The position numbers and the translations under genes are program-made. The notes beneath the pieces are model-generated. The model searched no databases, was not told the DNA's origin, and was given only the letters and a program-made list of their open reading frames with translations. This document shows, piece by piece, positions 1 through 21,136 of a stretch of 64,000 bases of DNA; positions within the stretch are counted from its first letter, which is position 1, and each line of letters starts with the position of its first letter. The stretch spans positions 496,001 through 560,000 of the forward strand of contig NZ_CP028158.1 in NCBI RefSeq assembly GCF_003030345.1. The letters run 5' to 3'. Origin of the DNA: Plantactinospora sp. BC1 (GTDB lineage Bacteria > Actinomycetota > Actinomycetes > Mycobacteriales > Micromonosporaceae).

Positions 1-3000
1 GCGGTCAGTACGTCCGCCGGTGCCGGTGCCGGCCCGACCCCGTCGTCGAGGCCGAGGGAGGCGAGCAGCCGGCGCAGGTTCTCCGGGTCGTCCGGATGCA
101 GCGCGCCCGCTCTGCCGGGACGGGCCGGATAGCCGTCCAGCATCACGAGCGTGACGTGCTCGCCCTCCGCCTGTAGCCGGGTGGCGATCTCGTGCGCCAC
201 GCCGGCCCCGAACGACCAGCCGAGCAGGTGGTACGGCCCCCGGGGCCGGGCGGCGCGAATCTCCGCGAGATAGTCCTCGGCCATCGCGGCGAGCGAGGCC
301 GGGGCGGCGTCGGGATCGGAGAGCCGGCGCGCCTGCAACCCGTAGACCGGAAGGTCCGGGGGCAGATGGCGCAGCAGGCCCGCGTACACCCAGGCGATGC
401 CGGCCACCGGATGCACGCAGAAGAGCGCGTCCGGTGCCGTACCGGCCCGCAGCGGCAGCAGGACGGCGAGCGGATCGCCACCGGTCGGCGTCGCGCCGGA
501 TCGGTCACGGTCGCCGAGCCGCAGCGCCAGAGCGGCCGGGGTGGGGCTCTCGAACAGGGCCCGGATGCTCAGCTCGGCACCGAACTCGGCCCGAACCTGC
601 GCGATCAGCTTGACGGCGAGCAGTGAGTGGCCGCCGAGGGAGAAGAAGTCCTCGCCGGGGCCGACGTGCGGGACCCCCAGCGCCTCGGCGAAGAGCTCTG
701 CGATCCGCTCGCTGCGAGCGCTCCAGGAGGACTCCGCCGGGCACGGTGCGCCGTCGACGCTCGGCGGGATCCCGGCCGGCCCCCGAGGCGGCTGCGGAAG
801 GAGCGCGGGCAGCCGGCGCGTGGGATCCTCGGCGGCGGCGTGCAGCACCCGCATGTACGCCGCCGCCAGGCCCTCGGCGGTGTCCCGGTCGAGCAGGTCG
901 GTGGCGTATTCCAGCGTGCCGTGCAGCCCGGCCGGCGTGCCGTCCGCGGCCCATCGTTCCTGGAAGGAGTAGAACATGTCGAACTTGGCGCTGCGCCGGG
1001 TCACCCCGGTGCGGGAGACCGCCACCTCCGGCAGCTCCAGCGCCGCGTCCGCGGTGTTCTGGAGCAGGAGCATGACCTGGAACAACGGGTGGTGGGCCAG
1101 CGACCGCCTCGGGTTGACCAGCTCCACGACGCGGTCGAACGGGATGTCGTGGTGGCCGAACGCCGCCAGGTCGGTCTCCCGCACCCGGTCGAGCAGGGTG
1201 GTGAAGCGGGGATCCCCGCTGGTGTCGGTCCGCAGCACGAGCGTGTTGACGAAGAAACCGACGAGGTCGTCGAGCTCCTCGTCGACCCGTCCGGCCACCA
1301 CCGAACCGATCGGCAGGTCCTCCCCGGCGCCGCAGCGGGTGAGCAGCGTGGCGAGGCCCGCGTGCAGGACCATGAAGAGGGTCACCCGGCCGGCACCGGC
1401 GAGTCCCAGCAGTCGGGCGTGCAGCTCGGCGTCGATCTCGATGTCGACGACGTCGCCGACGTGACTCGCCACGGCGGGTCGCGGCCGGTCGGCCGGCAGG
1501 GGCAGGATCTCGGGTACCCCGTGCAGCGTCCGGCGCCAGAAGGCCGCCTGCTCGGCCAGCACACTCGACGGGTCCTCCAGCGCACCGAGCAGGTCCCGCT
1601 GCCACAGCGTGTAGTCGGCGTACTGCACGGCGAGCGGAGCCCAGTCAGGTTCCCGGCCGGCGAGGTGCGCCGCGTAGGCCACCGACAGGTCGTGCAGCAG
1701 TGGACGCTCGGACCAGCCGTCGGTGGCGATGTGATGCGTCAGGAGCAGCAGTACGTGCCGTCCCGGCCCCACCGCGAACAGGGTCACCCGGATCGGCAGC
1801 TCGTGGCGCAGGTCGAAGACGTGCGCCGCCGCGTCCCTGAGGAGTTCGTCGAGTTCGGTCTCGGTGGTGGCGACGAGCGAGACCGGGACGCTGGCCTCCT
1901 CCGGCGCCAGCACCACCTGCTCCGGCTCGCCGTGCATCTCCCGGTAGACCGTGCGGAGGCTCTCGTGCCGGGCGACGACCGCACCGACACTCGCGGTCAG
2001 GGCCGCGGTGTCGAGCGGGCCCTCCAGCCGGAAGGCGAGGGGCAGATTGTAGGCCGCGCTCGGCCCGTCGATCGCGTCGAGCAGCCAGATCCGCCGCTGG
2101 GCGAACGACAGCGGCAGGTGCTCCGGGCGGGCAGCCGCGCGCAGCGCCGGGCGGTCTCCGGCGGCGGTGCTCGACGCGATCCGGCGCGCGAGTCCGGCGA
2201 CCGTCGGCGCCTCGAACAGCGTCCGGATGCCCAGCTCCACGCCGAGCGCCGACCGGATCCGGCCGATCAGGCGGGCGCCGAGCAGGGAGTGACCGCCCAG
2301 CCGGAAGAAGTCGTCGTCCACACCGACCCGTGGCATGCCCAGCACCTCGGCGAAGAGTTCGGTGAGCAGCTCCTCGCGTGCGTCGCGCGGACCGCGGGCA
2401 CCGACGACGGCGTGGCCCGGGGCGGGCAGCGCGGCCCGATCCAGTTTCCCGTTCGCGTTCAACGGGAACGCGTCCATCACGACGAAGGCCGAGGGCACCA
2501 TGTAGTCGGGCAGCGTGCCGGCGACGTGCGCCCGCAGCTCCTCGACGGCCGGCGCCCGGCCGGGGGCCGCGCGGACGTACCCGACGATTCGCCGATCGTC
2601 CGGCCGGTCCCCGCGGACGGTCACCACCGCCTGGGCGACCTCCGGGCAGCGGGTCAGCACCGCCTCGATCTCGCCCAGCTCGATGCGGAAGCCGCGGACC
2701 TTCACCTGATGGTCGACGCGGCCCAGATAGACCAGGCCCTCGCCGGTCCATCGGACCAGGTCACCCGTCCGGTACATGCGGTCACCGGGCGCACCGTACG
2801 GATTGGCGACGAACCGTTCGGCCGTCAGTCCGAACCGCCCCAGATAGCCCCTGGCCAGGCCGGTACCCGCCAGGTACAGCTCGCCGACCACGCCGACGGG
2901 TACGGGCCGCAGCCGGCCGTCGAGCACGTACGCCTGGCAGTTCCGGATCGGCCGGCCGATCGGTGTCGTCCCCCCGACCTCACCCTCGGACGCCCACGAG

Positions 3001-6000
3001 GTGGCGTAGACGGTGTCCTCGGTCGGCCCGTACGCGTTGACCACCCGTACGGCCGAGAACGCCCGCTGGACCGCTGCGGCGGTGGCGCCGGTCAGCGCCT
3101 CGCCGGCCAGCACGACGGTCGGTGCCGAAACTTGCACCGATCCCGTCGCCACGAGCTGCGCCAGCGCCGAGGGCACCCCGCTGACCAGCGTCGGCCTGCC
3201 CAGCGGGGCGTCCGCGGCCGGCGGGCGCTCCGCCAGCGCCAGCGCGTCCCGGAGCACCTCGACGGCGCCGCCGCAGAGCAGCGGGCCGAACATCTCGAAG
3301 ACGGAGACGTCGAAGTTGAGCGAGGTGCTGAACAGCACGTGCGCCAGCCGGTCCGGGCCGAACTCCTCGTGCGCCCAACGCGCGAGGTTCACCGCCGATT
3401 CGTGTGACACGAGCACCCCCTTGGGACGCCCGGTGGACCCCGACGTGTAGATGACGTACGCCGCGTTCTGCGGCGTCAGCCGGCTACGACGCTCCGCGTC
3501 GGTCAGGTCGTCGGCGGCCAGCGCCGCCACCGCCTCCACGGTCCCGGGGGCGTCGAGGACGATGTGGCGGGTCCCCGCGCAGACCGGTGGGAGCACACCG
3601 GCGGTTCCCGACTCGGCGATCACCGCGACCGGCGCCGCGTCACCGAGCATGTACGCGATCCGCTCCACGGGGTAGCCGGGTTCGACGGGCAGGTAGGCGG
3701 CGCCGGACTTCAGCACGGCCAGCAACGCGACCAGCATCCGCGTCGAGCGGGAGAGCGTGATCGCCACCAGGTCCTCGGGCCCGGCGCCGTGCTCGATCAG
3801 GTGCCGGGCCAGCCGGTTCGCCCGGCGGTCGAGTTCCGCGTAGCTGAGGATCCCGTCGTCGCCCAGCACCGCCGGGGCGTCGGGGCTGCGCCGCGCCTGC
3901 GCCTCGAACATCGCGGTGAGCGTGGTACGGGGCAGCGGAGCGGCGGTGTCGTTCCACGAGCGCAGCAGCTCGTGCTCGGCCGGGCCGAGCACCGGCAGCT
4001 CGTCGAGCGGGATGTCCGGCTCCCGCCCGACGGCGTCCAACACCCGTACCAGCGCGTCGGTCATCCGCTGTACGGTCGGACGGTCGAACAGGTCTACCGC
4101 GTACTCGACCTCCAGCGTCATCCCGGCCGGCGTGCCGTTGTCGTGTTGCTCGAAGAAGGCGACGAAGAGATCGAACTTCGCGTTGCCGGCGCTCATCGCC
4201 CGCACCGTGCACTCCAGCCCCGGTGCGCTGAAGTCCGCCCGGGCGTTGTTCTGCAACAGCAGCATCACCTGGAAGATGGGGTGCCGGCCCAGCGAGCGCG
4301 CCGGGTTGACGGCCTCCACCACCCGCTCGAACGGCACGTCCTGGTGGGAGTAGGCGGCCACGTCGACCTCCCGTACCCGGTCGACCAGCTGCCGGAAGGT
4401 CGGGTTCCCCGCCGTGTCGGTGCGCAGCACCACGGTGTTGACGAAGAACCCGACCAACTCGGTGAGCGCCTCGTCCGTCCGGCCGGCGACCGCGGAGCCG
4501 ATCGGCAGGTCGGTGCCGGCGCCGAGCCGGGTCAGCAGGGCGGCCAGCGCGCTGTGCAGCACCATGAAGAGCGTCGATCCGGTACGCCGGGCCACGGTGA
4601 GCAGCCGGGCGTGCAGCGCGGGCGGGAGGTCGACGACGAGCATGCCGCCGCGGTGACTGGCCACCGCCGGACGGCTGCGGTCGGTGGGCAGGACCAGCTC
4701 CTCCGGCGCACCGGCGAGCGTGCGCCGCCAGAAGGCGAGCTGCGCGCTGACCAGGCTCTCCGGACTCTCCTCCCGGCCGAGCAGCCGGTCGTGCCAGAGC
4801 ACGTAGTCGGCGTACTGCACGGGCATCGGCGACCAGGACGGCCGACGGTCGAGGGCGCGGGCGGTGTAGGCGGTGGCCAGGTCCCGCATCAGGGGCCGGA
4901 CGGACCAGCCGTCGCTGGCGATGTGGTGCGGGACCACGAGCACCACGTGCCGGTCGGCGGTGACCCGGAGGACGGTGCAGCGGATCGGCAGCTCGGTGGT
5001 GAGGTCGAAGGGCTGCCGCGCCGCCTCGGCCAGACGCTGCTGCACATCGGCCCGCGAGGTGTCGACGACGTCGAACGGCAGCCGCGCCTCCGGCACCGCG
5101 AGCACCACCTGGTGCGGGTCGCCCTCCGAATCCGGATAGACGGTACGCAGGATCTCGTGGCGTTCCAGCAGGTCGGCGAAGGCGGTCCGGAGCGCGTCCA
5201 CGTCCAGGGGACCGTCGATCGTGATCGTCTGTGGAATGTTGTACGTCGCGCTCGGCCCCTCCAGCTGCCGCAGGAACCACATCCGCCGCTGCGCGAAGGA
5301 CAGCCCCAACGTCTCCGGCCGGCTCGACGGCAGCAGCGGCGGCCGGTCCAGGCTGGAGATCTCCTCCGGTAGCCGCGCCGCCAGCTCCGCCACGGTGGAC
5401 GCCTCGAACAGCAGCCGGATGCTGATGGTCGTGCCGAAGGCGGTCCGGATCCGGCTGATCAGGCGCGCGGCCAGCAGCGAGTGGCCGCCGAGTTCGAAGA
5501 AGCCGACGTCGGCACCGACCCGGTCGACCTCAAGTACCTCGGCGAAGAGCGCGCAGAGCGTCCGTTCGGCGTCGGTGACCGGCTCCCGGCCGGCGTCGGC
5601 GCCGTAGACGGGGGCGGGCAGCGCCTGCCGGTCCAGCTTCCCGTTGGGGGTGCGCGGAAACTCGTCCAGCGGGATCACCACCGACGGCACCATGTAGTCG
5701 GGGAGGGTCCGTGCCACCTCGGCGCGCAGCGCGCCGGGGTCGATGTCCCGCCCCTGGACGTACGCGACCAGGTGGGTGCCGCCCGGCCCGTTGACGTCCG
5801 GCAGCACGACGACCTGGGCCACGCCCGGCGCGGCGGCGAACGCGGCCTGCACCTCCGCCGGCTCGACCCGGTACCCGCGCACCTTGACCTGGTGGTCCAC
5901 CCGCCCGACCACCTCGAACAGGCCCTCGGCCGTGATCCGCCCGAGGTCGCCGCTGCGGTACATGCGTTCGCCCGGCGCCCCGAACGGGTCGGCCACGAAG

Positions 6001-7781
6001 CGTTCCGCCGTCAGGCCGGGCTGGTGCAGGTAGCCGTGCGCCAGGGCGACGCCGGTGAGGTAGAACTCGCCGACGACGCCGACCGGGACCGGGCGCAGCC
6101 ACCGGTCCAGCAGGTACGCGCCCTTGTTCGCCAGCGGCCGGCCGACCGGCAGGGTACGCAGGTGCAGGTCCTCGGGGCGTACGGCGTGCCAGGTGGTGAA
6201 GCCGAGGTTCTCCGCCGGGCCGTAGACGTGTCGTACGCGCAGGTGGGGATAGAGCTGCATGATCTTCCTGACGTGCGGGGTGGACGCCGCCTCGCCGGCG
6301 CTGAACGCCACCCGTACCCCCTTGAAGGTGTGCGGGTACTCGTCGACGAGGAAGTTGAACAGGCTGCCGGAGAGCCGCACCATGGTGACGCCCCGGCCGG
6401 TCACCTCGTCCGCGATGACGGCCGGTTCTGCCTCCTGTGTCGGCAGCAGCACCGATCGGGCGCCGTGCAGGAGTGCCCCCCAGAGTTCGAGGCCCGAGGC
6501 GTCCCAGGAGGGCGGTGCCGCCTGTAGGAACACCTCCTCCGGCCCGAAGTCGGCGTACGTCTGACCGAGGTAGCTGCCGACGAGCGCGCGGTGCGGCGTG
6601 GCCACCCCCTTCGGCTGCCCGGTGGAGCCGGAGGTGAACATGACCCAGAGCAGGTCGTCGGGGCGTACCGGCAGGCGCAGGTCGTCGGCCGGCTGGGCGC
6701 TGATCGCCTCGGTGTCGAGGCAGATCGTGCCGGGATCACCGCCGCTGAGTCCCAGCCACTCCGACCGCCCGCTGGTGGTCAGCACGGCCCGGGCCCGCGC
6801 GGCGGAGAGGATCAGCCGGAGCCTGGCCGGCGGGAACGTCGGATCCAGGACCGTGAACGCCGCCCCGATCTTGGCGATCGCGAGCATCGCGGTCACCATC
6901 TCCGCGTTCCGGGGCAGGAGGATGCCGACTAGTGCGCCGCGAGCCACGCCTCGATCGCGCAGGTGGTGTGCCAGCCGGTTGGCCGCGGAGTTCAGCCCGG
7001 CGTACGTCGTCCACTCGTCACCGCAGATGATCGCCGTCGCGTCCGGGGTCCGCACCGCCCACTCTTCGAACAGCTCGTGCACGCACCGGTCGAGGGGCAC
7101 CTCGACCGCGGTGTCGTTCATCTCCACCACCAGCCGGCGGTGCTCCGCCTCGGAGAGCCGGTCGAGCCGGCGGAGCAGCCGATCGGGTCGTTCGGCGACG
7201 TCCCGCAGGACGCGCGCGAGCACCGCGCCGAGCCGCCCGGCGGCGGCGAGGCCGACCGAGCCGGCCGCCAGCCGGATCGTCACGCCGGTGGCCGGCCCCG
7301 ACGACACGCGGAGCACGATCGGCCACCCCTCGGGCACCGTCTCGACGTCCACCGCCAGGACCGTGTCGAAGAGAGGGGCGGTGGCGCCGTGCGGCGCGCG
7401 GGACTCGTCGGCGCGGGCGCGCACGAGCGAGTCGAGTGTCGCCTCCGGCCCGAGCCGGACCTGCGTCGGACGCACCTCGCCCCGCTCGTCGGCCACCCCG
7501 AAGAGCACCTCCGCCCGCCCCAGCAACTCGCCGAGGGTCACCGCCCAGGCGGCCCGGTAGACCGCCTCCGGCGAGGTCCCGGCTCCGGCCGCGACGGCGT
7601 GCAGCCGGGCGGCGACCCCGGCCGGGAGTTCCACCGGTACGTCCTCGGGAGCCTGCACCGACGCGCGGCCGTCGCCCTGTCCGCGCAGCTCGTCGACGAG
7701 CAGGGTGGGCTCGATGTCGGCGCTCGCGGGCACGGGCGCGGCCGACGCGGGCCTCTGGTCGTGCATCACCTGGTGGGACAC
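1..7781 (-). CDS. Nonribosomal peptide synthetase, (truncated C)-A-T-C-A-T-C-T-TE, 3' end beyond the window
   Basis: Continuous minus-strand frame of about 2,590 codons, open at the left edge. Domains in order, approximate positions: C-terminal half of a condensation domain without HHxxxDG (7781-7110); A1 (7100-5630, [20 protein letters not shown]); T1 (LGGHSLL near 5490); C2 with HHIASDG (near 4917); A2 (3960-2430, [20 protein letters not shown]); T2 (LGGHSLL near 2300); C3 with HHIATDG (near 1725); T3 (LGGHSLL near 635); thioesterase with GWSFG around the nucleophilic Ser (near 215). No epimerase domain is seen. C3 runs straight into T3 through a short linker, so the final module has no A domain. 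GTG at 7781 is chosen because GGAG lies 9 nt upstream; ATG at 7766 is the alternative. Hand-aligned specificity codes are D-A-L-R-F-A-V-G-F-K (A1) and D-V-F-S-V-A-A-V-Y-K (A2); neither gave me a confident substrate. The truncated C suggests an initiation module. Last gene visible in the biosynthetic operon. Confidence 0.95.
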
Positions 7782-7829
7782 GGGTCGAATCTCCGATCGG
7801 CGGTCGAACGGGTGCCGGTGCTGGCGGTG

Positions 7830-8024
7830 CTACCGGCTGCTCGCCGGCCGTAGGTCGGTCCAGTGCGTCTCGACGTAGCCGAGACAGTTCGCCCTGCCGT
7901 CCGGTCCGTGCACGACGGACCAGCCCGCCGGCACGTCGATGTCGGCCGGCCAGAGGCTGTGCTGGTCCTCGGGATTGCGGAGGACCAGGTAGGAACGGTC
8001 GGGGTCCTCGAACGGATTGGTCAT
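7830..8024 (-). CDS. MbtH-like NRPS chaperone
   Basis: 64-residue protein with the MbtH signature: N-terminal NPFED, YLVLRNPEDQHSLWP in the middle, and a conserved Trp-rich stretch (GWSVVHG, then a C-terminal THWTDLRP). MbtH proteins bind adenylation domains and are needed for their solubility or activity, so this one most likely serves A1 and/or A2 of the NRPS that starts 48 nt downstream. The ATG at 8024 is chosen over in-frame upstream starts because GGGAG lies 6 nt before it and the family begins with this NPFED region. The size is typical for the family. Confidence 0.95.
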   Translation of the reverse strand: MTNPFEDPDRSYLVLRNPEDQHSLWPADIDVPAGWSVVHGPDGRANCLGYVETHWTDLRPASSR

Positions 8025-8052
8025 CAGCGGCTCCCGTCCCTGCGGTGCCCGC

Positions 8053-9168
8053 TCATCCGCGCACCGTCCGCGCCGAACTCTCGGCGAACCACTCGGCCGG
8101 CACCGTCGCACCGTGGCCCGGTCCCTCGGGCAGCAGGACCCGGGCTCCCTCCCGGCGGGGGCCGCCGCGGACGTCGCCGTCGTCGAGTACCTCGTACGGG
8201 AAGTAGAAGTCCGAGCCGCTCACCAGATCGCCGGCGAGGCTGTACGCCTGCATGGCCGCGCCCACCCCGAGCCGTGTCTCGTTGAGTGATCCGCAGTAGA
8301 CGGCCAGGCCGTGCCGCTGCGCGCTCTGGAACAGCTCGATCGTCTGCTTCGTACCTCCGCTGCGGCCGAACTTGACCGCCACGACGTCGCAGAGCCCCGC
8401 CCGGGCGACGGGTTCGAGGTCCTCGGCGGTGCTCACCCCCTCGTCCACGCTGATCGGCACGTCGAACCAGCCGCGCAGCCGGGCCAGCCGATCCAGCTGT
8501 CGGGCCCGGAACGGCTGCTCGCAGAACTCGACCCCGCTGTCCCGGGCCGTGCCGAGGATCGCCCGCAGGGCCGTCTCGGTACCGCGCTGGTTGTAGTCGA
8601 GGCGCAGCGCCGCGTCGGGGGCGGCGCGGCGGAGCGCCCGCAGGCGTTCGACGTCCTCGGCCGGCGACAGCGCTCCGACCTTGAGCTTGAAGATGCGGTA
8701 GCCGTCGTCGGCCCGCTCCCGGACCACCCGGTCGACGGAGGCCGGATCCGGCCGGGACACGGAGTAGGAGAGATCGATGGCGAAGCCGGGGTCACCGCCG
8801 AGGAGCGTGTGCACCGCCAGGCCGGTCGCCCGGCCGACGAGGTCGTGGATCGCCATGTCCAGCGCCGCCTTCGCCACCGCGTTGCCCGGCACCGCCGCGT
8901 CCATCGCCCGGGACGCCCCGGCGCGGTCGGTCGGGTCCCGGCCGATCAGGGCGGGGGCGAGGAGCCCGGTGACGATCTCGACGATGGCCTGCGGGGTCTG
9001 CTCGGAGAAGACGGACCAGGCCGACGCCTCCCCGTACCCGTGGTGGCCGGCGTCGTCGGTGACCTGGAGGAAGACCGACTCCTGCACGCCGTTGACGGGT
9101 TGCAGCCCGCGCATCTGCGTCTGGGTCAGCTTGATTTCCCGTACGACGGCCGAGATTGATGTGATCAC
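8053..9168 (-). CDS. Enolase-superfamily enzyme (muconate cycloisomerase/dipeptide epimerase-like)
   Basis: 371 residues. The MR/MLE catalytic set is complete: KLK (K161, K163), D191 in LDYNQ, E217 in FCEQPF, D242 in SVDEG and K266 in VAVKFG. This pattern, with a lysine on each face of the barrel and three acidic metal ligands, is that of the muconate-lactonising subgroup, which also includes dipeptide epimerases and N-acylamino-acid racemases. The reaction is abstraction of a proton alpha to a carboxylate, bound through Mg2+. GTG at 9168 follows AAGGGG with 6 nt spacing. It lies between glutamate mutase and MbtH, so it probably epimerises or rearranges an amino acid or peptide intermediate; no substrate can be read from sequence. 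Methylaspartate ammonia-lyase is also an enolase-superfamily enzyme, but the active-site pattern here is closer to the MLE group. Confidence 0.85.
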   Translation of the reverse strand: MITSISAVVREIKLTQTQMRGLQPVNGVQESVFLQVTDDAGHHGYGEASAWSVFSEQTPQAIVEIVTGLLAPALIGRDPTDRAGASRAMDAAVPGNAVAKAALDMAIHDLVGRATGLAVHTLLGGDPGFAIDLSYSVSRPDPASVDRVVRERADDGYRIFKLKVGALSPAEDVERLRALRRAAPDAALRLDYNQRGTETALRAILGTARDSGVEFCEQPFRARQLDRLARLRGWFDVPISVDEGVSTAEDLEPVARAGLCDVVAVKFGRSGGTKQTIELFQSAQRHGLAVYCGSLNETRLGVGAAMQAYSLAGDLVSGSDFYFPYEVLDDGDVRGGPRREGARVLLPEGPGHGATVPAEWFAESSARTVRG

Positions 9169-9209
9169 TACGTCCCCTTCTCGTGAATGGTGTTCCGCGG
9201 GTCGGCCGT

Positions 9210-10538
9210 TCAGCAGGGCAGCGGTTCCGCCCCGTCCGACGGCGGGCCAATCGCGGCCAGCCGGTCACACTCGCGCTGGATGTGCGTCAGGGCCCGCAAC
9301 AGGCCGTCGGAGGAGAGGCGGCGGCTCCGATCGCCACGGGTGACGATCGGCATCCGGCCGCCGTCGCTCCAGGCCAGCCGGCCGTCCGACTCGATGTAGC
9401 TGCGGCTCAGCCCGGCGTTGTCGGGATGTATGCAGAACGGGACGTCGAGGATCCCGCGCTCGAAGGCGGTCACGATGGCCCGGCCGACGTCGGCATCGAG
9501 GTCGAGCACCGTGTCGATCAACAGACGTGCCTCGGTGTGCACGGCGCTGTCCCGCCCGGAGTCGACCGCGACCGGCGGCCCGGCCCGCCGCGCCACCGCG
9601 GCCGCGTCGGTGAGCGCCGCCACGTTGTCCGCCACGGTGGGGATGCGGAACGCCTCCGCCTGCGTCTTCACCAGCAGACGGGCGACCCCGGTGCGCATCG
9701 CGAGTTCTGCGGCGCGGCGGCCGAGCAGCCGCGCGCCGCCGGGGGTACGCGGGTACGCGCCCATGTAGGTGTAGAGCACGATGTGCCAGTCGGCGCCGAC
9801 CAGCAGCTCGGAGGCGATGCGGTGCAGGGCGAGGATCGCCTCCTCGTCCTGGGCGGGATTCGCCTGCTGGGTGTAGCTGACCGAGACGCTGTGCAGCCCC
9901 TCCTGGACGAAGAAGAGCGCCTCCAGGACCGTGATCGCTACCAGGAGGCCGGGTGGGCAGAGCTGGCCCATCATGCAGCCGCCGAAGCTCTCCAGGTGCG
10001 GCTGGACGCCGGCCCTCGACGCCGCGACGAGCAGCTCGCACGCCCGGCGCCAGCTGACCAGCGCGTCCCGCAACGGCACCCGGCCGTACGGCAGGCAGTA
10101 CGAGGCGGGCCCGCCCTCCGTCGCCGAGAGCCCGGCGGCGATGGCCGCCTCGATGATCCGCTCTGGCCGGGCGGCGCCGTGCCGGACCTGGACGGGGAAG
10201 TCGGGACCGTGAATGCCGTGCAGCACCGCCCGGGTGGTGGCCGCCGAATGGGAGACGATCGGGTAGCCGTTCAGCGGGGCACCGTCGGCCAGCGCGCGCA
10301 GCGCCGCGTCGTGGTCGCCGACCCGGGTGTAGCTGTCCAGCGTCAGCGTGCCGACCGTCGCCCCGCCGACCTGCTTCGTCGCCAGCAGCCCGGCCCGCAT
10401 CATCTCCGGGTCGCCGAAGCCCATCCGGGGCTGCACGACCAACCGGCCCGAGGCGCGGGCCTGGCGGACGTAGTCCCCGAACGACGAGGCGACCACCGGC
10501 GCCCGCTGCTGCTCCGCTGCGCCTGCCGACACCGTCAA
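9210..10538 (-). CDS. glmE: Methylaspartate (glutamate) mutase, epsilon subunit
   Basis: 442 residues resembling the catalytic TIM-barrel subunit of adenosylcobalamin-dependent glutamate mutase (QPRMGFGDPEMM near the N terminus, then PLNGYPIVSH and QVRHGAARPE). With the sigma subunit encoded immediately upstream it would interconvert L-glutamate and (2S,3S)-3-methylaspartate. The start is probably TTG at 10538, overlapping the glmS stop as TTGA; GTG two codons in (10532) is an alternative, and no strong ribosome site separates them. In a peptide gene cluster this enzyme normally supplies 3-methylaspartate or a derivative as a building block, as in friulimicin-type lipopeptide and beta-amino-acid polyketide pathways. 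Confidence 0.92.
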   Translation of the reverse strand: MTVSAGAAEQQRAPVVASSFGDYVRQARASGRLVVQPRMGFGDPEMMRAGLLATKQVGGATVGTLTLDSYTRVGDHDAALRALADGAPLNGYPIVSHSAATTRAVLHGIHGPDFPVQVRHGAARPERIIEAAIAAGLSATEGGPASYCLPYGRVPLRDALVSWRRACELLVAASRAGVQPHLESFGGCMMGQLCPPGLLVAITVLEALFFVQEGLHSVSVSYTQQANPAQDEEAILALHRIASELLVGADWHIVLYTYMGAYPRTPGGARLLGRRAAELAMRTGVARLLVKTQAEAFRIPTVADNVAALTDAAAVARRAGPPVAVDSGRDSAVHTEARLLIDTVLDLDADVGRAIVTAFERGILDVPFCIHPDNAGLSRSYIESDGRLAWSDGGRMPIVTRGDRSRRLSSDGLLRALTHIQRECDRLAAIGPPSDGAEPLPC

Positions 10539-11023
10539 CCACCCACCGCCGAGGTACTGTGGTTCAGGTAGGTTTCCAGCTCCCGGGCCGATGCCTGGTC
10601 GTCGAAGACGGCCGTGAAACCGGCCTCCAGCAGGGCGCGGCTCTGGGCGGCGTCGGGTGACCCGTCGATGCCGAGTTTGCCGCCGATCACCACCGGTACC
10701 CCGGCCAGGGCGGGGTTGGCCCGGAGTTCCGAGATCAGCCGCAGCCCGTCGGTGTGCCCGTGGCCGTTCACGCTGCTGACCACGACAAGGTCCGGACGGT
10801 AGGTCGCCATCTCGCTCAGCACGGTGCCGGTCGGCACGCAGCAGCCGAGGTTGCGCACCCGGTGGCCCAGCTCCTCGATCAGCAACTGCAGGAAGACCAG
10901 GTTCCAGGTGTGTGCGTCGGAGGCCGTGCTGGTCAGCAGCACCCGCATCCGGCGGCCGTCCGGCGGGCCGGCCGGGCCCACCCGGTCGGGGGAGCTGGTG
11001 GCCGGCCGCACCGCGACGGTCAT
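10535..11023 (-). CDS. glmS: Methylaspartate (glutamate) mutase, cobalamin-binding sigma subunit
   Basis: 162 residues with a Rossmann-like B12-binding fold. The base-off motif DxHxxG is present as D36-A-H38-T-W-N41: the lower-ligand His is kept, but the usual Gly is Asn. VVSSVNGHG and VVIGGKLG supply the later S-x-V and GG elements that hold the nucleotide tail. ATG at 11023 overlaps the stop of the AurF-like gene (ATGA), and the stop overlaps the glmE start, so the three are translationally coupled. About 25 residues precede the Rossmann core, so an internal ATG is possible. Acts with GlmE on glutamate. Confidence 0.92.
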   Translation of the reverse strand: MTVAVRPATSSPDRVGPAGPPDGRRMRVLLTSTASDAHTWNLVFLQLLIEELGHRVRNLGCCVPTGTVLSEMATYRPDLVVVSSVNGHGHTDGLRLISELRANPALAGVPVVIGGKLGIDGSPDAAQSRALLEAGFTAVFDDQASARELETYLNHSTSAVGG

Positions 11024-11967
11024 CGGCCGACCTCGAATTCCGTCTCCGCCCCCACCTCGTGGGCGAGTCGCCGCACCCCGGAGAAGTCCCGGACCAGCAG
11101 GGAGTTCCCGGGAAGCCGGCGGCAGTCCTCGACGATGTCGACCGCGTTCCTGATCCCGGCGTGCCGGATGACGATCGGCCACACGTCGAAGTCCTGCACG
11201 ACGAACGCCTCCAGCGCCAGCGGGATGGCGCGGTTGAAGAACTCGCGCTGCCTGCGGTCGAGGTGCGCGTGCAGCTCCCTGCCGACCTCCACCATGACCG
11301 GGCCGTGCGCGGACTCGTCCCGCGCGTGCAGCCGGGTCACCAGCGAGTGCGCCGGCTGGATGGTCTCGTCCCGGGACATCAGCTCCAGGTACGCGTTCAC
11401 GCTCACCTCGGCGACGGTCGCCCAGACGAACGTGAGCAGGTCCCGCTGCCAGGTCTCCGTGACGCGCTCGTGCTCGGCCAGCAGCCGCCGGTAGGTGACG
11501 GTGTGCGGGTAGTCCGGCTCCCGGTCGACGCGCCGCAACAGCCGGGTGTTGCGCATGGCGAGCATGTGCATGTAGGTGTGCCACGTCTCGTCGACGTGCG
11601 CCTGCTGGACCGTCTGCTGGATCTCGAAGCGGTCGATGCCGGGGTAGTCCCCGTGCACGATCTTGGCGAAGGTGGGGTTCGCGACGTACTCCTCGGCCGT
11701 GATGACCCGCTCGTTGTAGACCAGCCAGGCCAGGGTGAGTACCAACTGGCGCTGCTCGTCGGTGGCGTCGAGGAAGTCGGGGTGCTCGGCGAAGGGCAGG
11801 AACTGGACGGGATAGTCCGGCACCGTGTCGTCGTACTCGGCCCGGCCGTGCACGGCGTCGAGATCGGTACGTACGGTGGCCCGCCGTGGCCACGCCTCGG
11901 CGAGGCGTCGCAGCGTGCTCGGGCCGATGGAGTCCTCGCGGTCCAACAGGTCGGATACGGTGTTCAT
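11020..11967 (-). CDS. AurF-type diiron N-oxygenase
   Basis: 315 residues, all-alpha ferritin-like. Seven putative iron ligands can be placed: E92, E127, H130 (ETWH), E187, H214, E218 and H221 (HARDESAH). Their spacings match those of the p-aminobenzoate N-oxygenase AurF (E101, E136, H139, E196, H223, E227, H230, recalled from the literature) along the whole set. AurF-type enzymes oxidise an amine to hydroxylamine and on to nitro, using a non-haem diiron centre. Here the likely target is an amino group of a precursor or of the peptide. ATG at 11967 is preceded by GAGGGAT; only 17 nt separate it from the aminotransferase gene upstream. In-frame upstream extension lies inside that gene and is not used. 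Confidence 0.88.
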   Translation of the reverse strand: MNTVSDLLDREDSIGPSTLRRLAEAWPRRATVRTDLDAVHGRAEYDDTVPDYPVQFLPFAEHPDFLDATDEQRQLVLTLAWLVYNERVITAEEYVANPTFAKIVHGDYPGIDRFEIQQTVQQAHVDETWHTYMHMLAMRNTRLLRRVDREPDYPHTVTYRRLLAEHERVTETWQRDLLTFVWATVAEVSVNAYLELMSRDETIQPAHSLVTRLHARDESAHGPVMVEVGRELHAHLDRRQREFFNRAIPLALEAFVVQDFDVWPIVIRHAGIRNAVDIVEDCRRLPGNSLLVRDFSGVRRLAHEVGAETEFEVGR

Positions 11968-11984
11968 GTCGGTGTGATCCCTCG

Positions 11985-13283
11985 CTAAGACTGGTCTGCG
12001 GCACATTCCCGGACTGAGTCGGCGATCCGATCCAGTCCGGTGTGCAGGGTCGTCGGCTCGGTCGTGACCGGTGGCATCAGCTTGAGTACCTGTCCCCGTG
12101 CGCCGGAGGTCTCGGTCAGCACGCCTCGCTCGAACGCCCGGCGTGAGACCTCCGCGGCCACGCCCGGCCGCGCGAAGAACAGCCCGCGCATCAGGCCACG
12201 ACCCCGCACCTCGGCGCCGAGTGCGGGATGACGGCCGGCGAGTTCGGTCAGCCGCGTGTCGAACTCGGCACAGAGGCTCTGGATCTCCTTCTCGAAGGCG
12301 GGATCCGCCCAGAGGCTCAGCGCGGCCGTGGCCGTGACGAAGGCGAGGTTGTTGCCCCGGAACGTTCCGGCGTGTGCGCCCGGCTCCAGCACGTCGAGTT
12401 CGGGACGGATCAGCGTCAGCGCCATCGGCAGCCCGAACCCGCTGATGGACTTGGCGAGGCAGACGAGGTCCGGCCTGATCCCGGCCTCCTCGAAGCTGAA
12501 GAACCGGCCGGTCCGCCCGCACCCGGCCTGGATGTCGTCGACGATCAGCAGGATGCCCCGGTCCCGCACCACCTGCTCCAGGCGGCGCAGCCACTCGCCG
12601 CCGGCTGCGGCCAGGCCCCCCTCGCCCTGCACCGTCTCCACCACGACGGCCGCGGGCGTCTCGACACCGCCGGCCGGATCGTCGAGGACCGCCTCCAGGT
12701 AGGCGATCGTGTCCATCGACCCGGCGAGGTAGCCCTCGTACGGCAGGTGGACGACGTCGCCGAGGGAGACGCCGCCGGCCGACCGCTTCGACAGGTTGCC
12801 GGAGGCGGCGAGTGCGCCGAGCGAGCCGCCGTGGAAGCCGTTGGTGAAGGCGACGATGTTCGACCGGCCGGTCGCGCGGCGGGCCACCTTGAACGCCGCT
12901 TCGACGGAGTTCGCCCCGGTCGGCCCGGTGAACTGGACGCGGTAGTCGAGGTGCCGTGGGGCGAGGATCACGTTCCGGAACGCGCTCAGGAACGCCGCCT
13001 TCGCGGGAGTGTGCAGGTCGAGGGTGTGCACCGGGCGGTCTTCGGCCAGGTACCCGAGCAGCGCCCGCTTCATCGTGGGGTGGTTGTGCCCGTAGTTGAG
13101 CGCTCCCGCCCCGGCCATGAAGTCGAGGTACTCCCGGCCGTGCTGGTCCCACATCCGGTCGCCGCGCGCCCGGGTGAAGATCGCTGGAAAACGCCGGCAG
13201 TAGGTACGGACGTTCGACTCCAGCTCCTCGAAGACGGTGGTCTCCACGATCTGTTCGTCGGCCCGTGGCGAATCGATCTGCAA
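11985..13283 (-). CDS. Diaminobutyrate-2-oxoglutarate aminotransferase (EctB-type)
   Basis: 432-residue class III PLP aminotransferase. Visible features are FTGPTGANSVEAA (substrate/phosphate loop), VVETVQGEGG, IVDDIQAGCGRTG with the cofactor Asp at about 250, and the Schiff-base Lys278 in CLAKSISGFG. The N-terminal part (ESNVRTYCRRFPAIF, FMAGAGALNYGHNHP) is characteristic of the L-2,4-diaminobutyrate-forming EctB group. It would make Dab from aspartate semialdehyde and glutamate. No other ectoine gene is present, so it is a precursor gene of the cluster. TTG at 13283 is chosen: AGAGGA is 6-7 nt upstream and homology begins just after; the ATG at 13288 is out of frame. Confidence 0.9.
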   Translation of the reverse strand: MQIDSPRADEQIVETTVFEELESNVRTYCRRFPAIFTRARGDRMWDQHGREYLDFMAGAGALNYGHNHPTMKRALLGYLAEDRPVHTLDLHTPAKAAFLSAFRNVILAPRHLDYRVQFTGPTGANSVEAAFKVARRATGRSNIVAFTNGFHGGSLGALAASGNLSKRSAGGVSLGDVVHLPYEGYLAGSMDTIAYLEAVLDDPAGGVETPAAVVVETVQGEGGLAAAGGEWLRRLEQVVRDRGILLIVDDIQAGCGRTGRFFSFEEAGIRPDLVCLAKSISGFGLPMALTLIRPELDVLEPGAHAGTFRGNNLAFVTATAALSLWADPAFEKEIQSLCAEFDTRLTELAGRHPALGAEVRGRGLMRGLFFARPGVAAEVSRRAFERGVLTETSGARGQVLKLMPPVTTEPTTLHTGLDRIADSVRECAADQS

Positions 13284-13324
13284 CTCATGTCCTCTCTGAC
13301 GTCTGTGCCGACGGTGCCGACCGA

Positions 13325-14347
13325 CTACCGGTGGGTCCGGCGGCTGCCCTCCACGACGCGGTCGCGGATGTTCCAGAGGCTGCGCCGGACGTACGTCCGT
13401 TGCAGCCACCGGTCCTTGCCGTCGTACCGGGCGGTGAACCGGGAGCGGGCGTGGATGCCCTTGCGGTTGTTGATGAGCAGCGCCTGGCCCGCCCGGAGGC
13501 TGACGATCTGGGCGACCTCGGGGTGGCGGGCGACCTTCTGCAGGGTGTCGAAGGCGGCGTCGGCCTCCGGCGTCAGCCGGCGCACCCCGTTGGCGGCCAC
13601 GGCGATCTCGGGCGCCTCGGCCGGACCGGTGAGGAGCGGGACCGGTTCGGAGAGCACCTCGCGGCCCCCGGCGAACATCCGCGTGTAGCCGCCCGGCGCG
13701 TTGAGCTGGAACAGCGGGGACCGCAGCACCTCGATCGTCGTGTCGTCGAGGTGGTCGGTGAGGTCGCGCGCGTCGGCGTAGGCGGTCAGCGCCTCGCCGG
13801 CCAGGTCCGGGCGCAGGCAGTTCAGGACGAGGAAGTCGGGGTTGCTCACGTCGTACCGGCCGCCGGCGTCGTGCACGATGTCGTTGTGGAAGTTGAGGAA
13901 CACGTCCGAACCCTGGCTGGTCTGGGTCTGGGCGCCGGCCGCCGTCGGGATGATGTCGTGGACCGCCCGGCCGTCCTTCTCGGTGAGGAAGGAGACCGGC
14001 TCACCGAGCAGGCCCGAGAGACCGAGCAGGACACCCTCCGCGACGTACGTGGACTTGCCGACGCACGGTCCGCCGTTGCTGGGCGTCGGCGGCAGATCGA
14101 GGTCGACCGGGAGGTTCTCCACCAGCGTCACGCCGGGGGTGTCGACGTGCCGCCCGAAGTCGAGGATCGCCTGTAGCGTCTCGGCGGGCAGGGTCGCGAA
14201 CGCCTTGTGTGCCAGCGTCGTCACCCAGTCCATCTGGGGCTCCGGATTCGGTAATCCCTTCAAGTGCTCGAAGAGCGCGTCCCGACTTTCGTTGGACAGA
14301 GCGATGCGGGCGATTCCCTTGACGGGAGTCGTCTGAGTCAGCGTCAT
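13325..14347 (-). CDS. Fe(II)/2-oxoglutarate amino-acid hydroxylase (AsnO/VioC-like)
   Basis: 340 residues of the clavaminate synthase/TauD-like fold. Proposed iron triad: H154, D156 (NFHND) and H299 (GIHARSRFTARYDG). The tail motif ARYDG-x-DRWLQR is the one found in the beta-hydroxylases of free amino acids such as AsnO and VioC. Those two use HxE; here the motif is HxD. The reaction would be hydroxylation, or desaturation, of a free amino acid such as Asn, Arg, Lys or Dab before loading. The ATG at 14347 has an excellent AAGGAG 7 nt upstream, and the in-frame extension above it has no homology. First gene of the minus-strand biosynthetic operon, 41 nt before the aminotransferase. Confidence 0.9.
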   Translation of the reverse strand: MTLTQTTPVKGIARIALSNESRDALFEHLKGLPNPEPQMDWVTTLAHKAFATLPAETLQAILDFGRHVDTPGVTLVENLPVDLDLPPTPSNGGPCVGKSTYVAEGVLLGLSGLLGEPVSFLTEKDGRAVHDIIPTAAGAQTQTSQGSDVFLNFHNDIVHDAGGRYDVSNPDFLVLNCLRPDLAGEALTAYADARDLTDHLDDTTIEVLRSPLFQLNAPGGYTRMFAGGREVLSEPVPLLTGPAEAPEIAVAANGVRRLTPEADAAFDTLQKVARHPEVAQIVSLRAGQALLINNRKGIHARSRFTARYDGKDRWLQRTYVRRSLWNIRDRVVEGSRRTHR

Positions 14348-15054
14348 GCTGTCACTCCTTTTTGGGCAGGGTGAATCGCGACGGGATCGAAATGGTCGGC
14401 AGGCCGTAGCGTGCTCACCAATCGGCTTGCCAGCGATTGTTGCCCGCCGTATTCCACTGCTGCGGGTGAAATGTTTCAAGCGTCCGCGTGTGATGTGCGG
14501 TGATGCTCGCGCGTCACCATCGGGAACGACGCCGCAGACCGCGCGCCGCGAGTCCGGGCGCGGTTTTCCGACGCGTCACCGGGCGTTTGCTACGCCTGCT
14601 ACGAGCCGTTCATATCATGTGGATGCGAAATCAGCGTCATCCCAACCCCCGTGGAAGCTCTGACAGTGGCAGCGACACGCACTCTGCGTGTGTGCTCTCG
14701 ATGACCTCTCGGCGGCGACACTGGGCGCCGGGGTCGTCGGGATCTGGGCGGCAGTCCATGGCCCCGACCCGAACGTGACCGATCGTGGCACACTCGCTAC
14801 GACTGTCGCAAGTGTCGAGTAAAGATGATCAGTCTTTTATCGGAATCACCGCCGCGTGACGATCACCGCCCCAGTGAGGTGATCTCAATCGGTACCGGAG
14901 TGTCCACGTGCGAACCTCAGGCTGGTGGGGGCCTGAGTTGGTGGTGGCCGACGTGCTCGGCCAGTGCGCGCGAGTTCTTCTCCGGTACGTCGGCCGGCGG
15001 CGCTCCGTATGATCAGCCTCTTCACGGCCCTACCACCGGGAACGGTTAACGACA
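14348..15054. other. Divergent regulatory region without a convincing gene
   Basis: About 700 bases between the biosynthetic operon (minus) and the exporter (plus). It has noticeably more A+T than its surroundings around 14600-14640 and 14815-14845, as expected for promoters and operators. Short ORFs here lack ribosome sites and family resemblance. An imperfect inverted repeat (cacgcac/gtgtgtg arms near 14677-14696) is visible. I could not place a clear promoter for the minus operon, nor a full cobalamin riboswitch despite the B12-dependent mutase in the operon. No pathway regulator gene is present in the window. Confidence 0.5.
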
Positions 15055-15083
15055 TTTACAACGGCAGATTAGGCTGTTTTAAT
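15055..15083 (+). promoter_or_regulatory. Putative sigma70-type promoter of the MFS exporter
   Basis: TTTACA at 15055-15060 and TTTAAT at 15078-15083 are separated by 17 bp, in an AT-rich patch that stands out from its surroundings. Transcription would start near 15090 and leave an untranslated leader of about 110 nt before the exporter ATG at 15202. Sequence match only. Confidence 0.45.
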
Positions 15084-15201
15084 TCTGTGTCGGCAGTGCC
15101 TGCCGGCCCGACCGTCGACCGGCAATGCAGGGGGTGTTGCCGTGCACGGGCCGTACGCTGCACCGGCGTGACGATGACGAGACCGCGGGGGAGGTCTTCC
15201 G

Positions 15202-16470
15202 ATGGCGGACGTGCCGGTGTCGGTCGTGGAGCGGGCGAACCTGCGCGCCTTCTGGGCGGCTAGCACGGTCTCGGCCTTCGGGTCCCAGGTGAGTCTCCTC
15301 GCCCTGCCGCTGATCGCGCTCACCGTGCTGGACGTGGCGGGCTGGCAGCTCGGCGTGCTGGCGGCGCTGCAATACCTCCCCACCCTGTTGTTGAGCCTGC
15401 ACGTCGGGTGGGCCATCGACCGGTGGCCCCTGCGCGGCAGCCTGATCACCGCCAACATCCTCTCCGGGGTCTTCGTCGCCGCGGTGCCGCTGCTGCACCT
15501 CGCGGGGCTGCTGAATCTCGGGGTGCTCTGCGTCATCGCCTTCGCGCTTGGCGTCAGCCGCCTCTTCCTGGAGATCGGAAACCAGTCGTACGCGCCGATG
15601 ATCTTCGGGCAGGAGCGGCTGGTCGGGGCGGCCTCCCGGATCAACTCGGGGGCCTCGCTCGCCGAGACTGCCGGTCCGGGCCTCGCCGGCCTGCTGATCC
15701 AGGTGGTGCAGGCCCCCTTCGCGATGCTGCTCGACGGCCTCTCCTTCCTCGTCTCCGCCTTCTTCACCGCCACCACCAAAACCCTGCGCACCGTGACACC
15801 CGTGGAGCGGCCCCGGCGCTGGGTGCGGGCCGGGTTCGGCATCCTGTTCGGCGATCCACGGCTGATGACGCTGGCGGTGACCTCCGCCTGCTTCAACGTC
15901 TGCCTGCGGATCGCGGTGGTGGCGTTCACCGTCTACGCCGTCCGGGGGATCGGCCTGGGGCCGTTCGCGCTCGGTGTCGCCCTGGCGGTCGGTGGGGTGG
16001 GCGCGACGGCGGGCGCCGTCCTGGCCGGGCCGATCGCGCGCCGGATCGGTACCCTGCAGTCGATTTCCAAGGGCATCCTGCTGGCCTCCGTCGGCATGTT
16101 CCTGGTCCCCTGGGGCTTCGGGCCGGTGGCCGGCTTCGTCGTGGCCTGCGTGGGTCTGCTGCTGCAGTGGTTCGGCCTGGGCGTCTACAACGTGCACGTC
16201 ATCGTGTACCGGCAGACGGCCGCACCGCCCGAGGCGCTCGGCGTCGTCAACGCCTGCTACAAGCTGATCTCGCATGGCAGCATCCCGATCGGCGCGCTGG
16301 TCGGCGGCGTGGGCAGCAGCGTCGTCGGTCCCCGGGTCACGCTCATCGGCGCGGGGCTGATCGCCATGGTGGGGGCGCTGGTCGCCGGAGCCAGGCTGGC
16401 CAGGTCCCGGCCGCCGGCCGGCGAACCCCGCGACGTGACACCGGCCGCCACCAGCACGAGCGGGCAGTAG
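15202..16470 (+). CDS. MFS transporter, EntS-like drug/siderophore exporter type
   Basis: 422 residues with about 12 hydrophobic segments evenly spread through the chain. The loop after TM2 reads HVGWAIDRWPLRGS, a variant of the MFS motif A, and GPGLAGLLIQ and the organisation match the MFS_3 (enterobactin exporter-like) group. It probably exports the peptide made by the divergent operon, or gives self-protection. ATG at 15202 is preceded by GGGGGAGG at 7 nt. The hydrophilic Pro/Ala/Thr-rich tail is cytoplasmic. It is the only transport gene next to the cluster on this side. Confidence 0.88.
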   Translation: MADVPVSVVERANLRAFWAASTVSAFGSQVSLLALPLIALTVLDVAGWQLGVLAALQYLPTLLLSLHVGWAIDRWPLRGSLITANILSGVFVAAVPLLHLAGLLNLGVLCVIAFALGVSRLFLEIGNQSYAPMIFGQERLVGAASRINSGASLAETAGPGLAGLLIQVVQAPFAMLLDGLSFLVSAFFTATTKTLRTVTPVERPRRWVRAGFGILFGDPRLMTLAVTSACFNVCLRIAVVAFTVYAVRGIGLGPFALGVALAVGGVGATAGAVLAGPIARRIGTLQSISKGILLASVGMFLVPWGFGPVAGFVVACVGLLLQWFGLGVYNVHVIVYRQTAAPPEALGVVNACYKLISHGSIPIGALVGGVGSSVVGPRVTLIGAGLIAMVGALVAGARLARSRPPAGEPRDVTPAATSTSGQ

Positions 16471-20569: not shown

Positions 20570-21136
20570 ATGCTCAGACGCCACCTCCTCCGGGCCACGC
20601 TCGGCCTGCTCACCCTCGCCACCTCGCTGGTCGGGGTCGAGGTCGCCGCCGCGCCGGCCACCGCCGCGCCCGCGGTGCGTACGGTCTACTACGACGCGAG
20701 CCGGGCCGGGGAGTTCGGCACCAACTTCACCCAGGCCGCCCAGATCTGGAACAGCAGCGTCAGCAACGTGCGCCTGGTGGCCGGCACCCCGGCGACGGTG
20801 ACGATCTACGTCGACAGCGGCTGGCCCCGGGCGTACGTCACCGGGCTCGGCTCCGGCCGGGTCTACATGGGCTGGCAGGCCGTGAACCAGGGGTACGACC
20901 GGACCAGGATCGCCACCCACGAACTCGGGCACATCCTCGGGCTGCCCGACCGGCGTACCGGACTCTGCTCGGATCTGATGTCCGGCAGCAGCGCCCCGGT
21001 CTCCTGCCGCAACGCGTACCCGAGTGCGGCCGAGGCGTCCCGGGTCGACGCGCTGTTCGCCGGCGGCCTCGCCCCCGCGTACGCCGGTGGCGCGGCGGCG
21101 ACAGTGGCCGGCACGTACGTCTGGACCACCGGCTGA
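20570..21136 (+). CDS. Snapalysin-type secreted zinc metalloprotease (peptidase family M7)
   Basis: 188 residues with a Sec signal peptide ending near ATAAPA, then a compact catalytic domain. The zinc site HELGHILGLPD is the extended HExxHxxGxxD motif of snapalysin, where the third ligand is Asp. A Cys pair (LCSDLM...SCRN) probably forms a disulfide. It would act as a small extracellular neutral protease. ATG at 20570 follows AAGGAG with about 5 nt spacing. A perfect 11-bp hairpin follows the stop. No LysR regulator, often paired with this family in Streptomyces, is nearby. Confidence 0.93.
   Translation: MLRRHLLRATLGLLTLATSLVGVEVAAAPATAAPAVRTVYYDASRAGEFGTNFTQAAQIWNSSVSNVRLVAGTPATVTIYVDSGWPRAYVTGLGSGRVYMGWQAVNQGYDRTRIATHELGHILGLPDRRTGLCSDLMSGSSAPVSCRNAYPSAAEASRVDALFAGGLAPAYAGGAAATVAGTYVWTTG

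Follow-up and report, generated by a model that had tools for sequence, protein, structure and literature searches.

A probable operon of Plantactinospora sp. BC1 that joins a methylaspartate-type peptide synthetase pathway with an EctB-AurF pair

Our analysis of a 64,000-nucleotide stretch of the genome of Plantactinospora sp. BC1 (the window: bases 496001-560000 of a single 8.33 Mb contig, with all coordinates below counted from the window start) indicates that eight genes, probably one operon, join a methylaspartate-type nonribosomal peptide synthetase (NRPS) pathway with an EctB-type aminotransferase and an AurF-type N-oxygenase encoded side by side. The explanation that we favour, with a probability of about 0.4, is that EctB and AurF act on one skeleton derived from glutamate mutase and that the NRPS builds a peptide of about three residues.

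The eight intact genes occupy the minus strand between 14347 and -303 and, as assigned by Pfam and NCBIfam matches, are transcribed in the order OX, EctB, AurF, MutS, MutE, ENO, MbtH, NRPS, with intergenic gaps in the same order of 41, 17, -4, -4, 41, 28 and 48 bp. The probable grouping as a single operon rests on these small gaps, none above 48 bp, and on the common strand. Reading frames and key motifs are intact across all eight genes, and the operon probably builds a small peptide of about three residues. A sequence-only reading of this DNA had named the same eight functions, and each is indeed present as an intact minus-strand frame with profile matches. It had drawn the operon over positions 1 to 16470; the genes are real, but the NRPS gene extends beyond the window start by 303 bp, and at the other end the transporter gene included in that span is a divergent neighbour on the opposite strand. 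The features are as follows.

13325-14347, minus strand: OX, an Fe(II)/2-oxoglutarate oxygenase of the AsnO/VioC/clavaminate-synthase type (TauD family; H-N-D and distal H)
11985-13283, minus strand: EctB-type aminotransferase, of the type that converts aspartate semialdehyde to 2,4-diaminobutyrate (TIGR02407; AKSIS lysine motif)
11020-11967, minus strand: AurF-type ferritin-like diiron N-oxygenase (PF11583; seven iron ligands)
10535-11023, minus strand: MutS, B12-binding subunit of glutamate mutase (DAHTWN motif)
9210-10538, minus strand: MutE, catalytic subunit of glutamate mutase (profile matches)
8053-9168, minus strand: ENO, muconate-lactonising-enzyme subgroup of the enolase superfamily (profile and motif)
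7830-8024, minus strand: MbtH-like protein (profile match)
7781 to -303, minus strand: NRPS of 2694 aa, ending 303 bp past the window start, with the order A1-T1-C1-A2-T2-C2-T3-TE (A, adenylation; T, carrier; C, condensation; TE, thioesterase)
5577-7100, minus strand (limits approximate): A1 domain, pocket DALRFAVGF, 3-methylaspartate (SlgN1) type
2427-3908, minus strand (limits approximate): A2 domain, pocket DVFSVAAVY
507-2117, minus strand (limits approximate): C2 and T3 with no A domain between them (profile matches, motifs)
15202-16470, plus strand: major facilitator superfamily (MFS) transporter, divergent neighbour (profile matches)

EctB as the partner of AurF

The AurF protein of the operon matches PF11583 with an E value of 2.2e-39, is 50% identical to the AurF of S. 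thioluteus over 300 aligned residues and keeps 7/7 iron ligands (E101, E136, H139, E196, H223, E227 and H230). Relatives were sought in 350 genomes of the family, 394 of the class and 367 of the genus of genome G724, draws that overlap. An EctB gene stands immediately before the AurF gene in five clusters: that of the window, that of Nonomuraea sp. SYSU D8015, and those of G724, G963 and G1063, three genomes of one genus, taken to be Streptomyces, whose AurF copies stand at 62-63% identity. The window EctB is 65-68% identical to the other four AurF-linked EctBs, and a tree of EctBs gave no firm branching order. No EctB was found around the related AurFs of G818 (36 kb), G1111 (36 kb) and G932 (51 kb), which stand at 55-57%, nor around the aureothin-type AurFs of Embleya (33 kb), G724 C2 (16 kb) and G1113 (17 kb), the last two of which our searches also returned. 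Since EctB is the constant partner of AurF, the EctB product is most likely the AurF substrate.

The identity to a p-aminobenzoate N-oxygenase does raise the question of whether the enzyme has the aureothin activity, making 4-nitrobenzoate from cellular p-aminobenzoate as a cap for the peptide. We consider this very improbable. In a tree of 15 rows, S. thioluteus AurF and four copies at 67-85% identity to it form one group (100/99) and the window copy lies outside it, on which ground we reject an AurF proper of the aureothin type; for the window copy and its closer relatives the tree gives no firm branching order. An earlier tree, which held the distant AurFs of Pantoea, G149, B. glumae and G333 that the 15-row tree omits, paired the window and Nonomuraea copies at 98/95, a pairing that the 15-row tree does not resolve. 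The window protein also differs from the aureothin group at positions 92, 197, 198, 202 and 204, there is no pabA or pabB among the neighbours scanned, the A1 domain of the NRPS carries an aspartate that binds an alpha-amino group, and a p-aminobenzoate substrate would leave the EctB partner unexplained. The aureothin group reads L and A at positions 202 and 204 (5/5 rows), the five EctB-linked copies have Y and E, and three unlinked copies have F and D. We dropped Y202/E204 as a signature of EctB-linked AurFs, because Y202 occurs in 6/6 distant copies and G333 among them has E204 as well; by sequence, the two positions show only that the window AurF is without the aureothin pair.

The five clusters differ in what surrounds the pair. 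After the EctB-AurF pair in Nonomuraea come MutS, MutE and OX, and ahead of it stand an ATP-grasp protein, a P450 and a lone A-T protein, so that MutSE and OX accompany EctB-AurF in two clusters, this one and the window. In G724, G963 and G1063 we found no MutE, MutS or OX within 36-38 kb; a class-I aminotransferase and a PanB-like (ketopantoate-hydroxymethyltransferase-like) protein precede EctB-AurF there, and an MFS protein, a TauE protein and an L-amino-acid ligase come after it. G724 and G963 also have a luciferase-like monooxygenase and a flavin reductase, neither of which was found in G1063.

Two observations touch these genes from outside. The source genome holds two more EctB-type genes (G000:C1:444508-445740 and 5515246-5516487; 55 and 49% identity), both at most 3 kb from a condensation domain and near NRPS genes. 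About 4 kb from OX of the Nonomuraea cluster lies a frame (L112 14636-16882) that encodes GyrB ATPase and transducer domains and then a methyltransferase domain; it might be a self-resistance gene.

Glutamate mutase, its oxygenase and the synthetase

The glutamate mutase had been called complete, and rightly so: MutS and MutE are both present and intact. Their scores fall below the NCBIfam equivalog cut-offs (162.7 versus 390.1 bits for MutE, 42.1 versus 110 bits for MutS), and we therefore regard them as divergent members. The cobalamin motif of MutS reads DAHTWN, as it does in Nonomuraea, with N in place of the G of the usual DxHxxG. OX has AsnO (2og5) as its nearest solved structure (E 2.4e-35) and keeps the HxD and distal H of AsnO/VioC-type oxygenases.

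How closely OX is tied to the mutase can be seen by scanning two peptide patterns, taken from the OX alignment, over the named genome collection, which yielded 54 loci. MutE lies within the fetched flanks of 36 of these, 32 of them at 45% identity or more and the other four as weak matches in proteobacteria (28-34%). When the remaining 18 genomes were searched whole, 14 had a MutE, so that OX and MutE share a genome in 50/54 cases, the four weak matches included. In A. orientalis 12.5 kb separate the two genes, and coordinates suggest a spacing of about 12 kb in most other Amycolatopsis. An aspartate kinase and a semialdehyde dehydrogenase join OX and MutE in 32/54 loci (29 at 45% identity or more), which suggests that in those loci methylaspartate is reduced to a semialdehyde. 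MutS, MutE, semialdehyde dehydrogenase, aspartate kinase and OX recur as a module (L032, L033, L035, L049 and 29/54 of L051-L104), which mostly comes with a solute-binding protein and in one case has leuC and leuD annotated next to it. Among the 54 loci, only that of Nonomuraea (L051) has an EctB at 60% or an AurF at 40%.

In the OX tree the window and Nonomuraea copies fall together (100/99), each on a long branch. The MutE tree divides the two genomes, placing the window copy with NRPS-type MutEs and the Nonomuraea copy with OX-linked MutEs (98/77, not strong). That a mutase of different origin is found with the same partners argues that the product of the mutase is needed with them.

A tie between the mutase and the NRPS comes from A1. 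The synthetase had been described as having two A domains; it does have two, and to this we add that it has three carrier domains. Its motifs are intact (HHxxxDG twice, GGxS three times, the TE motif GxSxG once), and we found no epimerisation domain in it. With no A domain between C2 and T3, loading of the third residue must fall to an A domain elsewhere. The first 227 residues have no Pfam match; we dropped the idea of a condensation remnant there, since only the final 43 of the 227 resemble the end of C1 (E 0.005). Against solved structures A1 scores 518.7 bits with SlgN1 (4gr5), and the totals of linear gramicidin synthase exceed this only by summing two domains (265 + 292 bits). Over the 141 residues of the specificity region, the score is 149 bits for SlgN1 (4GR4/4GR5) and 90 for the next-best structure. 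SlgN1 is described in the available parts of two papers as the (2S,3S)-beta-methyl-L-Asp enzyme of streptolydigin (PMC11253843, PMC11355689). Because A1 is closest to SlgN1, we regard the glutamate mutase as tied to the NRPS; the sequence-only reading had pointed to friulimicin-type lipopeptides, and the nearest link found is instead this A domain.

The pocket of A1 was read as nine letters by applying the GrsA positions to an A1-anchored alignment (with K assumed as the tenth), and compared with A domains from loci fetched for carrying MutE or OX. It reads DALRFAVGF, differing from DALQIGGGF of SlgN1 at 4/9 positions, and the NRPS pockets at three other MutE loci read DALQFAGGF, DALQFGGGF and DGLQFGGGF. 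At positions 278 and 322, A1 carries R and V; SlgN1 and the three closest codes show Q and G there. On the pocket sequence, A1 is of the methylaspartate kind, and R278 and V322 could suit a modified methylaspartate. In S. celluloflavus (L122-L124), one NRPS region includes MbtH, MutSE, an A domain of the SlgN1 type (DALQFGGGF) and, about 32 kb from MutE, an OX at 66%.

ENO keeps the K-x-K, the D/E/D metal ligands and the opposite K of the muconate-lactonising-enzyme subgroup. Around the other four EctB-AurF pairs, the stretches read gave no ENO match, and ENO may therefore act on something specific to this product. At an E value of 1e-50 or better it occurs in 2/394 genomes, the source genome included; the second copy (41%) lies about 0.5 Mb or more from the MutE of its genome.

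The claim of an undescribed combination is supported within the reach of our searches. We found no paper in the open-licence literature with both "glutamate mutase" and "AurF", and the full eight-gene set was found nowhere else; however, the operon is not a one-off, with EctB and AurF recurring in four other clusters and OX with MutE widespread. Thus it looks like two existing modules joined on an NRPS.

One modified residue or two

What, then, would the two modules make? We think it most likely that both halves, MutSE-OX and EctB-AurF, act on one carbon skeleton. MutS and MutE would convert glutamate to 3-methylaspartate, which OX would hydroxylate on the methyl group and housekeeping aspartate kinase and semialdehyde dehydrogenase would reduce to the semialdehyde. 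EctB would turn this aspartate-type 4-semialdehyde into a 4-amine, and AurF would oxygenate that amine, probably to nitro if it behaves like S. thioluteus AurF. The pair would thereby yield a gamma-N-oxygenated amino acid of the 2,4-diaminobutyrate type, here 2-amino-3-(hydroxymethyl)-4-nitrobutanoate. The G724-type clusters could reach the same residue by way of diaminobutyrate, AurF, transamination, a PanB-like hydroxymethyl transfer and transamination back. A1 would load the modified residue and A2 a second one, T3 being loaded by either or in trans, and TE would release the peptide. ENO may epimerise a residue, a guess prompted by the lack of an epimerisation domain in the NRPS, and the divergent MFS protein could possibly export the product.

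It is also quite possible that the two blocks stay separate. In that case MutSE and OX would supply a hydroxylated 3-methylaspartate to A1, EctB and AurF would make N4-oxygenated diaminobutyrate from ordinary aspartate semialdehyde for A2 or T3, and the NRPS would join them. The methylaspartate type of A1 fits such a scheme, as does the score of EctB (593.5 bits), which is above the 552.2-bit equivalog cut-off of TIGR02407; we found no dedicated kinase or dehydrogenase, and EctB-AurF and MutSE-OX are found apart in other genomes. Two separate blocks would, however, leave unexplained why in the G724-type clusters MutSE and OX are swapped for an aminotransferase and a PanB-like enzyme, possibly giving the same carbon type, and R278 and V322 of A1 stand against Q and G in SlgN1 and the three nearest codes.

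We narrowly prefer one residue to two, mainly because two enzyme sets converge on the same residue, and several observations weigh against this preference. EctB passes the cut-off of the ordinary diaminobutyrate enzyme, and A1 looks acid-binding, which fits methylaspartate itself. AsnO and VioC, the relatives of OX, are beta-hydroxylases, so OX may hit C3 and not the methyl group. There is no dedicated kinase or dehydrogenase in the operon or near that of Nonomuraea; the semialdehyde dehydrogenases of both genomes are 38-42% identical to the OX-linked one and are thus ordinary (kinases were not searched genome-wide). Four OX genomes gave no MutE in whole-genome searches (L057, L088, L098 and L104), drafts that may be incomplete. 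Moreover, the two MutE copies fall on different sides of their tree, so that the five shared genes were not inherited as one block. The AurF copies of G724 and G963 are 98% identical, making theirs nearly one cluster and leaving about three independent contexts for the pair, and since Y202 is found in distant AurFs, L202/A204 of the aureothin group may be the derived state.

A more specific form of the one-residue proposal would have the side-chain carboxyl of the glutamate mutase product become a nitromethyl group in four steps (kinase, reductase, EctB, AurF), with two convergent routes, MutSE and OX or a PanB-type transfer, leading to one branched aliphatic nitro amino acid that NRPSs or ATP-grasp ligases build into peptides. 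Taken as a whole this stronger statement is doubtful.

A small siderophore seems improbable. AurF would then stop at the hydroxylamine, giving a diaminobutyrate hydroxamate, with a beta-hydroxylated methylaspartate as second ligand, and three residues would offer as many as six donor atoms. Iron is classically bound by beta-hydroxyaspartate and hydroxamates, the NRPS has three carrier domains, and an FhuF-like protein is encoded outside the window, about 14 kb past the point where the NRPS gene ends. Against this, a scan of selected neighbouring proteins turned up no iron ABC importer, and the FhuF-like gene sits past a group of other genes. AurF itself, as the available part of PMC6783550 has it, takes an amine to nitro.

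Surroundings, known systems and significance

The group of genes just mentioned is dense and lies outside the window at -24853 to -366 (L001, L002). It includes two TauD oxygenases (one Cs1/GntD-like), a haem-oxygenase-like protein, a SARP-type regulator and the FhuF-like protein, and further a LysA-like decarboxylase, a fatty-acid-desaturase-like protein, an Asp/Asn hydroxylase, an isochorismatase and a methionine-gamma-lyase-like enzyme. We considered and rejected it as part of the pathway: its nearest genes are on the other strand, converging on the NRPS gene, and when 12 of its proteins were compared with 20 loci only 3 matched, at 28-38%. It is probably a separate cluster. An ectoine cluster was likewise rejected, as neither EctA nor EctC is among the operon proteins. 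Elsewhere in the window, 20570-21136 holds an M7-family neutral protease gene with a LacI-family regulator adjoining.

Among known systems, the streptolydigin cluster (SlgN1, glutamate mutase) shares the subtype of 3-methylaspartate A domain, there accompanied by an MbtH domain. Streptolydigin is a tetramic acid made by a polyketide synthase-NRPS, and to our knowledge its cluster has no EctB, AurF, AsnO-type oxygenase or enolase-type enzyme. Friulimicin-type lipopeptides combine methylaspartate and diaminobutyrate in one NRPS product; they are, as far as we know, made on long lipopeptide assembly lines with an acyl starter and without AurF. We rejected a lipopeptide of this type, the operon having two A domains and no acyl ligase gene. 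In vicenistatin-type macrolactams methylaspartate becomes a beta-amino starter for a polyketide synthase, and we know of no EctB or AurF there. A dedicated domain activates 3-methylaspartate in that type (VinN, with glutamate mutase), according to the available parts of PMC11253843 and PMC11284099.

The window AurF shares its seven iron ligands with S. thioluteus AurF, from which it differs by tree position and by its EctB neighbour. Non-aryl nitrogen is not new to the family: in the portions of the sources available, HamC (HamC/PvfB) acts on a tethered valine amine (PMC11659414), LitN perhaps on an amide (PMC10616846) and Dob3 on a hydrazone. Those portions do not mention EctB for these enzymes, whereas the window AurF adjoins it. 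The Nonomuraea locus (L051, L113) has EctB, AurF, MutS, MutE and OX in one gene run as in the window; it differs in its lone A-T protein, P450 and ATP-grasp proteins, and no ENO, MbtH or modular NRPS was found there. In the proteobacterium Collimonas pratensis, an AurF protein and a diaminobutyrate aminotransferase belong to one co-regulated run (NKI69421-NKI69438), 14 numbers apart and with a ketoacyl synthase, a desaturase and others; the available part of the paper names neither a glutamate mutase nor a product (PMC12542777). This run may be another pairing of the EctB-AurF type in a different setting.

More generally, an AurF relative beside EctB in five clusters offers a defined enzyme, a likely substrate and several loci in which to test them. 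We know of few enzymes that place oxidised nitrogen on an aliphatic amino acid. Nitropeptin, a dipeptide antibiotic that bears a nitro group, comes from a streptomycete. The analysis also brings out a widespread partnership between glutamate mutase and an AsnO-type oxygenase, with an aspartate kinase and a semialdehyde dehydrogenase of its own. The EctB-AurF pair would be a handle for searching genomes for peptides of nitro amino acids, and the operon itself could open the way to natural products of a new kind that bear a nitro or hydroxamate group.

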